Notes under the pieces: model-generated
Seen by the model: the letters and a program-made list of their open reading frames with translations, nothing else
What the model was told of the DNA's origin: nothing
Databases searched by the model: none
Assembly: GCA_947476015.1 (NCBI GenBank)
Contig: CANJOS010000006.1
Location: 1 to 44,511, forward strand
Direction of reading: 5' to 3'
DNA: 44,511 nt
Source of the DNA: Comamonadaceae bacterium
Lineage (GTDB): Bacteria; Pseudomonadota; Gammaproteobacteria; Burkholderiales; Burkholderiaceae_C
Shown: piece after piece, positions 35,143 through 37,935 of the stretch
Position numbering within the stretch: position 1 is the stretch's first letter
How the letters are laid out: each line of letters begins with the position of its first letter
Translations under genes and position numbers: made by a program

Positions 35143-36603
35143 ATGATTTCACGCGAACCCACCATTGAACGTTTGGCCACGGCCAGATCCCTCTTGCTCG
35201 AACCCTTTGGCTTAGATGAATCGCATTTGGCCAAGGCCTTGAGTGCCATCAAGGCTCATCAGGTCGACGATGCCGATTTGTATTTCCAATACACCCGATC
35301 CGAAGCTTGGAGTTTGGAAGAAGGCATTGTGAAAACTGGAAGCTTCAGCATTGACCAAGGCGTTGGCGTTCGGGCTGTGGCCGGCGAGAAAACGGCGTTT
35401 GCCTACTCTGACGACATCTCTGAGGCTTCTTTGATGGATGCGGCGGTCACCGTCAGAGCCATTGCAGGTGCGCATCAAAATCGAAAAGCCAAAGTACCCA
35501 CTCGCAAAGTGGCAGGCATTCGATCCTTGTACCCCTCGCTCGACCCGATGGGCACCTTGAACAGTTTCGACAAAGTTCAATTGCTTGAAAAAGTAGAGCA
35601 GCTGGCAAAGGCCAAAGACCCTCGCATCGTGCAGGTCATGGCGGGTTTGGCCAGCGAATACGATGTGGTCATGGTGGCCCGCGCCGATGGCACTTTGGCG
35701 GCAGATGTGCGGCCGCTGGTGCGACTCTCCGTCACGGTCATTGCCGAGCAAAAGGGTCGTCGTGAAGTCGGCAGTGGTGGCGGTGGCGGCCGGTTTGGCT
35801 TGGCCTATTTTGACGATGCCATGATCAACTCGTATGTCGATGATGCAGTGCATGCCGCCCTCACCAACCTCGACGCGCGACCCGCTCCTGCTGGCGTCAT
35901 GACGGTGGTTTTAGGCCCTGGTTGGCCAGGCGTGTTGTTGCACGAAGCCATCGGACATGGTTTAGAGGGCGACTTCAATCGGAAAGGCTCCAGTGCCTTC
36001 AGTGGCATGATTGGCAAACGTGTGGCAGCCAAGGGTGTCACTGTGTTGGACGATGGCACCATTTCTGACCGTCGTGGCTCGTTGAATGTGGACGATGAGG
36101 GCTGCCCCAGCCAGCGCAACGTTCTCATTGAGGATGGCATTTTGAAGGGCTACATTCAAGATGCGATGAATGCGCGACTCATGGGTGTGAAGCCTACTGG
36201 CAATGGTCGCCGAGAAAGTTATGCCCACATTCCCATGCCTCGCATGACCAACACTTACATGTTGGGGGGTGACAAATCTGCTGAGGAAATTGTGGCCAGT
36301 CTCAAAAAAGGCTTGTATGCCACCAACTTTGGCGGGGGTCAGGTTGACATCACCAGCGGTAAGTTTGTGTTCTCTGCCAGTGAAGCCTATTGGGTGGAAA
36401 ACGGCAAGATTCAATACCCCGTGAAGGGCGCCACCTTGGTAGGGAGCGGCCCTGAGTGCCTGAAACACGTGAGCATGATTGGCAACGACATGCGCTTGGA
36501 CACGGGTGTGGGTGTGTGCGGCAAAGAAGGCCAAAGCGTGCCAGTGGGCGTTGGGCAACCGACCCTGCGCATTGAAGGGCTGACTGTGGGCGGCACTGCT
36601 TAA
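35143..36603 (+). CDS. tldD: metalloprotease TldD
   Basis: QYTRSEAWSLEEGIVKTGSFSIDQGVGVRAV, HEAIGHGLEGDFNRKGSSAFSG (HEXXXH), STEAYWVENG-like region (SASEAYWVENGKIQYPVKGATLVG). Confidence 0.95.
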   Translation: MISREPTIERLATARSLLLEPFGLDESHLAKALSAIKAHQVDDADLYFQYTRSEAWSLEEGIVKTGSFSIDQGVGVRAVAGEKTAFAYSDDISEASLMDAAVTVRAIAGAHQNRKAKVPTRKVAGIRSLYPSLDPMGTLNSFDKVQLLEKVEQLAKAKDPRIVQVMAGLASEYDVVMVARADGTLAADVRPLVRLSVTVIAEQKGRREVGSGGGGGRFGLAYFDDAMINSYVDDAVHAALTNLDARPAPAGVMTVVLGPGWPGVLLHEAIGHGLEGDFNRKGSSAFSGMIGKRVAAKGVTVLDDGTISDRRGSLNVDDEGCPSQRNVLIEDGILKGYIQDAMNARLMGVKPTGNGRRESYAHIPMPRMTNTYMLGGDKSAEEIVASLKKGLYATNFGGGQVDITSGKFVFSASEAYWVENGKIQYPVKGATLVGSGPECLKHVSMIGNDMRLDTGVGVCGKEGQSVPVGVGQPTLRIEGLTVGGTA

Positions 36604-36635
36604 ACAGCGCTAAATTTGTGATACATTGTTTCCCC

Positions 36636-36710
36636 ATGACCAAGCGCTTCAGCTTTTTTAGCTTTTATTTTGCATTCTCTGTCCTAGGCGGACGAGAGGC
36701 CAGCGCATAA
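36636..36710 (+). CDS. candidate Phe-rich leader peptide MTKRFSFFSFYFAFSVLGGREASA
   Basis: 24-codon ORF with 6 Phe and 1 Tyr at residues 5-14, ending 20 nt before a strong intrinsic terminator upstream of aroG. Confidence 0.85.
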   Translation: MTKRFSFFSFYFAFSVLGGREASA

Positions 36711-36730
36711 GTCACTGAACCCCTCTACCA

Positions 36731-36763
36731 ACCGCCGGACTCAACCCCCGGCGGTTTTTTTTT
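36731..36763 (+). terminator. intrinsic terminator of the aroG leader (attenuator)
   Basis: ACCGCCGG-ACTCAACCC-CCGGCGGT perfect 8-bp stem with a T-run at 36755-36763. Confidence 0.92.
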
Positions 36764-36810
36764 GCTTTCACCCTTTTGATTCATTTTTTATTTTTGTACT
36801 GGAGCCCACG

Positions 36811-37935
36811 ATGACCACCAAAACCAAAGCCAGTTCGGAGCCTCGTTATGTCAATCCCTTGGACCGCATGGGGCAGACCGATGACGAACGCATCAAGGAC
36901 ATCACCGTGTTGCCACCCCCAGAACATTTAATGCGTTTTTTCCCCATCACGGGAACTGCGGTGGAAACCTTGATTTCACAAACGCGTCGCAAAATTCACA
37001 ACATCATCGCAGGCAAAGACGATCGTTTGCTGGTGGTCATTGGCCCATGCTCAATTCACGATCCTGCGGCGGCCTTGGATTACGCCCGTCGGTTGAAGCC
37101 ACTGCGCGACAAATACCAAGACACTTTGGAAATTGTGATGCGCGTGTATTTCGAAAAACCAAGAACCACTGTCGGCTGGAAAGGCTTGATCAATGACCCC
37201 TACTTGGACGAAAGCTACCGCATTGACGAAGGCCTGCGCATTGCGCGACAGTTGCTGATAGAAATCAACCGTCAAGGTTTGCCGGCTGGCAGTGAATTTT
37301 TGGACGTGATTTCTCCCCAATACATTGGTGATTTGATCAGCTGGGGTGCCATTGGTGCGCGGACCACGGAAAGCCAAGTTCACCGCGAGCTTGCTTCAGG
37401 CTTGTCAGCCCCCATTGGATTCAAGAATGGCACCGATGGCAACATCAAAATCGCCACCGATGCCATTCAGGCTGCGGCCCGAGGCCACCACTTTTTGTCG
37501 GTGCATAAAAACGGTCAAGTGGCCGTTGTGCAAACACTGGGCAATCAAGACTGCCACGTGATTTTGCGGGGTGGCAAAGCGCCCAATTACGATGAAGTCA
37601 GTGTGAAGGCCGCATGCAAAGACTTAGAAACTGCCAAATTGCCCCCCACCCTGATGGTCGATTGCAGCCATGCCAACAGCAGCAAACAACATGAGCGACA
37701 AGTCGATGTGACGCAGGACATTGCAGGGCAAGTGCGCAAGGGCTCACGACAAATTTTTGGCGTGATGGTGGAAAGCCACATTGAGGCGGGTGCGCAAAAA
37801 TTCACACCCGGCAAAGACGATGTGAATGCTTTGAAATATGCCCAGAGCATCACCGATGCCTGCATCGGGTGGTCTGACAGCGAAAAAGTGTTGCAAATTT
37901 TGTCCAGCGCGGTGGAAGTGCGTCGGAAAAAATAA
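36811..37935 (+). CDS. aroG: 3-deoxy-7-phosphoheptulonate synthase (class I DAHP synthase)
   Basis: LLVVIGPCSIHDPAAALDYARRL, VYFEKPRTTVGWKGLINDP, DCSHANSSKQHERQ. Confidence 0.96.
   Translation: MTTKTKASSEPRYVNPLDRMGQTDDERIKDITVLPPPEHLMRFFPITGTAVETLISQTRRKIHNIIAGKDDRLLVVIGPCSIHDPAAALDYARRLKPLRDKYQDTLEIVMRVYFEKPRTTVGWKGLINDPYLDESYRIDEGLRIARQLLIEINRQGLPAGSEFLDVISPQYIGDLISWGAIGARTTESQVHRELASGLSAPIGFKNGTDGNIKIATDAIQAAARGHHFLSVHKNGQVAVVQTLGNQDCHVILRGGKAPNYDEVSVKAACKDLETAKLPPTLMVDCSHANSSKQHERQVDVTQDIAGQVRKGSRQIFGVMVESHIEAGAQKFTPGKDDVNALKYAQSITDACIGWSDSEKVLQILSSAVEVRRKK

Follow-up and report, generated by a model that had tools for sequence, protein, structure and literature searches.

The aroG gene in the stretch of Comamonadaceae DNA analysed here (44,511 nucleotides, hereafter the window) is very probably controlled by a ribosome-mediated transcription attenuator. 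Its leader consists of a small open reading frame (ORF) rich in aromatic codons, an intrinsic terminator, and RNA strands that can pair in alternative ways, and this element is real and conserved. An earlier note on this DNA had put forward attenuation of aroG as its core idea, which is now strongly supported by the conservation of the leader, its single-copy linkage to aroG, its covarying helices, and a simulation of ribosome stalling. The aroG gene itself (36811-37935, forward strand, as are all the leader features below) encodes a type I 3-deoxy-7-phosphoheptulonate (DAHP) synthase, with matches to PF00793 (1.4e-94) and TIGR00034 that reach the curated cutoffs for this enzyme; the closest named relative (L031) has 91% AroG identity. 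The upstream gene, tldD, ends at 36603, 33 nt ahead of the leader ATG.

Leader peptide, promoter and alternative helices

The leader ORF, MTKRFSFFSFYFAFSVLGGREASA, extends from an ATG at 36636 to a TAA at 36708-36710 and has 24 codons, ten of which form the control run FSFFSFYFAF (36648-36677), with six Phe and one Tyr. These boundaries and this composition match base for base those first proposed, and across the six frames of the 44.5-kb window it is the sole ATG ORF with at least six aromatic residues in ten. The aromatic run is conserved in relatives, where its commonest form is FYFxYFWFS, and most Comamonadaceae peptides read M...FYFxYFWFS..GGREA; the Limnohabitans-like clade of the window carries Phe and Tyr in the run, without Trp. 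The GGREA tail is kept within one clade, and between clades the frame and sequence of the tail vary freely. Searches of the leader peptides against Pfam and NCBIfam models gave no match. At loci L031-L110 the leader Phe codons lean to TTT (158 TTT to 101 TTC), while aroG of the same loci favours TTC (99 to 400); slow decoding may be favoured in the leaders, or the stretch may be kept unstructured. In three distant relatives (L185, L187 and L189) only one to three aromatic codons remain, with GGCGG and the terminator retained, as if aromatic-codon control were being lost.

Comparison of the leaders also revealed an extended -10 promoter element, TG-A-TACATT (36619-36627; TG at 36619-36620, TACATT at 36622-36627), which was absent from the earlier note and is relevant to its question of where transcription starts. 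Of 128 leaders, 75 have the pattern TGnTAnnnT ending 6-8 nt 5' of their ATG (shuffled sequences average 0.28, with a maximum of 2), and it lies at the same distance in 56 of the 63 leaders of a close set. A sigma-70 scan requiring a -35 box found no promoter, and Shine-Dalgarno-like sequences are scarce (6 of 128 leaders). With the usual -10 spacing, the RNA is predicted to start at or within a few nucleotides of the leader ATG, and for this reason the leader ORF is probably leaderless or nearly so.

Nineteen nucleotides beyond the leader stop codon lies the intrinsic terminator, AACCGCCGG-ACTCAACCC-CCGGCGGTT followed by T9 (36730-36763), and a further 47 nt separate it from the aroG start at 36811. 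It is a perfect GC-rich hairpin whose base pairing is kept in relatives, with arms AACCGCCGG (36730-36738) and CCGGCGGTT (36748-36756) and a loop of 9 nt; the T run covers 36755-36763. The location and the nine Ts had been reported correctly, and the stem, previously counted as 8 bp, is one of 9 bp. In the usual numbering this hairpin is 3:4, and three strands upstream or within it compete for partners. Region 1 (36675-36684) is made up of UUCUC (36675-36679), which overlaps the last aromatic and Ser codons, and GUCC (36681-36684); it forms the 5' side of the 1:2, or anti-antiterminator, hairpin. Region 2 (36687-36699), with GGCGG (36687-36691) and GAGAGG (36694-36699), can pair with either region 1 or region 3. 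Region 3 (36720-36740) is composed of a CCCCUCU spacer and CCGCCGGAC, the antiterminator partner strand, of which CCGCCGG doubles as the terminator 5' arm. The antiterminator pairing proposed before is present as claimed, GTCC (36681-36684) and GGCGG (36687-36691) facing GGAC (36737-36740) and CCGCC (36732-36736), so that the GUCC of region 1 can additionally lengthen this helix; the helix is also longer than was claimed, since AGAGG (36695-36699) pairs with CCUCU (36722-36726). The local hairpin proposed alongside it likewise exists, and its best register joins UUCUC (36675-36679) to GAGAG (36694-36698) with GUCC/GGAC inside. As a whole, the 130-nt leader folds with a z-score of -3.2, a value equalled by 1 of 200 dinucleotide shuffles. 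Two GCGC stretches (36644-36648 and 36702-36706) can also pair, giving a larger hairpin around the control codons.

Conservation and covariation among relatives

In relatives, 110 aroG loci were compared (a few being the same contig counted twice), and 97 of them have a short ORF rich in aromatic codons with a CCGCC..GGCGG terminator behind it. The alignment of aroG upstream regions that had been suggested as a check shows both the aromatic run and the alternative helices to be conserved. Three further loci have the ORF and fail the terminator filter, and two are truncated where their contigs stop. The element is clearly missing from Polynucleobacter, from two Cupriavidus copies and from two odd loci. 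In Polynucleobacter (L086-L089) aroG stands directly behind tldD, with no leader, no terminator and no room for them, an apparent loss of the element. We trained a covariance model on 63 non-redundant leaders; it matches 79 of 300 genomes drawn evenly across Burkholderiales, always in single copy and in about 14 families; 78 of these 79 matches precede a DAHP synthase gene, nearly all with an aromatic leader. Outside Burkholderiales the model finds four genuine copies in two families. The same leader and aroG occur beyond the order in L070 (Solimonas) and L203-L206, through horizontal transfer or an older common origin. Weak matches at L188 and L207, with no DAHP synthase beside them, were set aside as chance. 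The second, more distant DAHP synthase paralogue of the same genus carries the leader in none of 11 cases.

For the terminator and the 1:2 hairpin, 95% of cells are paired and double changes occur at 6 pairs, a result reached by 0 of 500 shuffles. In the UUCUC/GAGAG helix the paired share is 92%, and four of its five pairs have changed on both strands; the antiterminator is paired in 80% of cells, with double changes at three pairs. Much of the pairing comes without covariation because the core is nearly invariant. The base flanking this core changes jointly in regions 2, 3 and 4 (C/G/C in 47 leaders, T/A/T in 28, G/C/G in 1), and the flanking base is paired between regions 3 and 4 in 115 of 125 leaders. 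When phylogeny is considered, the covariation of regions 2 and 3 is suggestive: a test on the AroG tree counts about six independent changes, 2.8 in the same against 0.7 in the opposite direction, which is not significant. GGCGG is retained while the reading frame over it shifts (frames 0, 1 and 2 in 80, 1 and 16 leaders), so it is the RNA, not Gly-Gly, that is under selection. The antiterminator duplex has a mean z-score of -2.55 and forms in 60 of 63 leaders once region 1 is omitted, with the GAGAG tail paired in 51, and the 1:2 hairpin by itself (mean z -0.6) is hardly more stable than shuffles.

These patterns bear on other ways of reading the leader. The terminator could be the mere 3' end of tldD and the short ORF fortuitous, as the proximity of tldD in the window and its presence upstream of 77 of 97 leaders would allow. 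Yet no tldD match adjoins the other 20 leaders or 13 of the 30 loci L111-L140, among which a few are truncated; the aromatic run, GGCGG and the promoter are all conserved, and Polynucleobacter has tldD-aroG with neither terminator nor leader; this explanation is rejected as highly improbable. Equally improbable is a ligand-binding riboswitch or a protein-bound leader in which the small ORF is a chance overlap. The strong conservation of the RNA core and the lack of a match in Rfam would suit it, but the conserved part is limited to the three alternative strands, with no separate aptamer-like domain, and the most conserved coding property is the aromatic codons, exchanged among Phe, Tyr and Trp. 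In Sinorhizobium, the leader RNA rnTrpL and its peptide peTrpL act in trans, and it is conceivable, if unlikely, that the terminated leader of about 128 nt or its peptide does so here besides attenuation. A leaderless start, a short terminated RNA and a GGREA tail conserved within one clade would fit such a role; the free change of tail frame and sequence between clades is what would be expected if the RNA alone matters.

Proposed attenuation model and the amino acids probably sensed

From the promoter start through translation and stalling to the aromatic amino acids that matter, we infer the following course of events for the attenuator. The extended -10 promoter would set the transcription start close to the leader ATG, and the leader would be translated as a leaderless or nearly leaderless mRNA. 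With well charged aromatic tRNAs, the ribosome would pass the Phe and Tyr (and, where present, Trp) codons; the 1:2 hairpin (UUCUC..GUCC/GGAC..GAGAG) would then reform or region 2 be covered, and region 3, left free, would allow the GC-rich terminator to end transcription after about 128 nt. When charging is low, the ribosome would stall in the aromatic run and cover region 1, so that region 2 (GGCGG-nnn-GAGAG) could pair with the CUC..CCGCC strand. The antiterminator so formed would remove the 5' arm of the terminator, and RNA polymerase could reach aroG. The parts that such a scheme calls for are present in the leader: a run of end-product codons in a short ORF, an intrinsic terminator between this ORF and the structural gene, an antiterminator that excludes the terminator by taking its 5' arm (the phylogeny-corrected covariation of this helix being suggestive) and, by simulation, control codons so positioned that a stalled ribosome covers region 1 and frees region 2.

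In this simulation the leading edge of the ribosome was placed at 12 nt and the antiterminator was scored as the number of GGCGG:CCGCC pairs out of five. With a ribosome on any aromatic codon except the last, means of 4.4-4.6 pairs are obtained, compared with 2.1-2.8 when no ribosome is present; a ribosome on the final aromatic codon partly masks the antiterminator. Any aromatic codon at least 14 nt before GGCGG mostly gives four to five pairs, and Phe, Tyr and Trp behave alike. The window's own sequence reaches 3.9 pairs without a ribosome and 5.0 with a ribosome at the stop codon. This weak equilibrium contrast is the weakest point of the model, and the off-state must therefore come from timing, which equilibrium folding does not capture, or from the complete terminator prevailing.

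As for the amino acid, the leader had been described as sensing phenylalanine. Phe codons are indeed in the run, but the label is too narrow: among the leaders at relatives' aroG loci all 97 runs contain Phe, 93 also have Tyr and 74 have Trp, and a stall at any of these codons frees the simulated antiterminator. The signal is likely to be any aromatic aminoacyl-tRNA, and the codon content suggests that Phe and Tyr codons count in the window's clade and Phe, Tyr and Trp codons in most relatives. We give about an even chance to a broader proposal, in which one leaderless peptide senses all three amino acids, low charging of tRNA-Phe, tRNA-Tyr or tRNA-Trp each releasing the entry enzyme, and in which the leader represents a widespread, uncatalogued Burkholderiales RNA family with a clade-dependent codon mix (without Trp in the clade of the window). 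A narrower alternative, that Phe codons alone act and those for Tyr and Trp are bystanders keeping a U-rich stretch unstructured, seems rather doubtful. It can draw on the predominance of Phe in the runs of relatives (434 residues, vs 153 Tyr and 76 Trp), on members with Phe only or nearly so (e.g. L079), and on Corynebacterium glutamicum aroR, whose Phe-Tyr-Phe leader answers to Phe and not to Tyr according to PMC11802643. The near-constant presence of Tyr and the frequency of Trp speak against it, the more so as Trp is a rare residue, unlikely to last unselected, and as the Trp codons of relatives lie mostly 14-18 nt ahead of GGCGG, where a simulated stall leaves the antiterminator formed.

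Known systems and significance

The mechanism is a textbook one. Enterobacterial pheL-pheA and pheM-pheST (Rfam Phe_leader) share with the aroG leader a leader ORF rich in Phe, an intrinsic terminator, three alternative helices and the logic of ribosome stalling. They differ in their target genes, whereas the aroG leader mixes codons for Phe, Tyr and Trp and its ORF is probably leaderless. In thrL (Thr/Ile) and ilvL (Ile/Val/Leu), the codons of a single leader peptide represent several of the end products of a branched pathway; the aroG leader is aromatic, and its RNA and target differ from both. The placement on the entry step of the pathway had been singled out as the noteworthy part, and this is not borne out, as attenuation of a DAHP synthase gene is already known elsewhere. 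In C. glutamicum, the aroR-aroF attenuator, predicted in PMC4046766, places the DAHP synthase gene under a Phe-Tyr-Phe leader (Neshat et al. 2014, as summarised in PMC11802643). It shares with the aroG leader the aromatic-codon peptide and the control of a DAHP synthase gene by transcription attenuation, a likeness by analogy; it belongs to Actinobacteria and has only these three codons, unlike the Burkholderiales runs with mostly five to eight aromatic codons, usually including Trp. A further candidate is the Acholeplasma uORFC-13-1 motif upstream of aroF, with 24 examples (PMC8632094), which by its description also places a uORF with one or more Phe codons and a terminator before a DAHP synthase gene.

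Within Rfam, Pfam, NCBIfam and the open-access literature the Burkholderiales aroG leader appears to be uncatalogued, and an earlier prediction is possible in the subscription literature. A search of the window against Rfam 15 gave no match at the gathering threshold, including to Phe_leader and Trp_leader, and the permissive matches were unrelated RNAs. A 2016 survey of proteobacterial regulons mentions attenuation, in the excerpts available, for gammaproteobacterial trp and pheA only (PMC5343134).

The leader offers a directly testable and broadly conserved explanation for the control of entry into the aromatic pathway in many betaproteobacteria, among them Acidovorax, Variovorax, Polaromonas and Limnohabitans, and predicts a single sensor serving several amino acids. 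One RNA family and one family of leader peptides, about 24 residues long and unannotated, would be added to those known, and its natural variants, with or without Trp codons and in differing frames, are material for dissecting what is required of a stalled ribosome.
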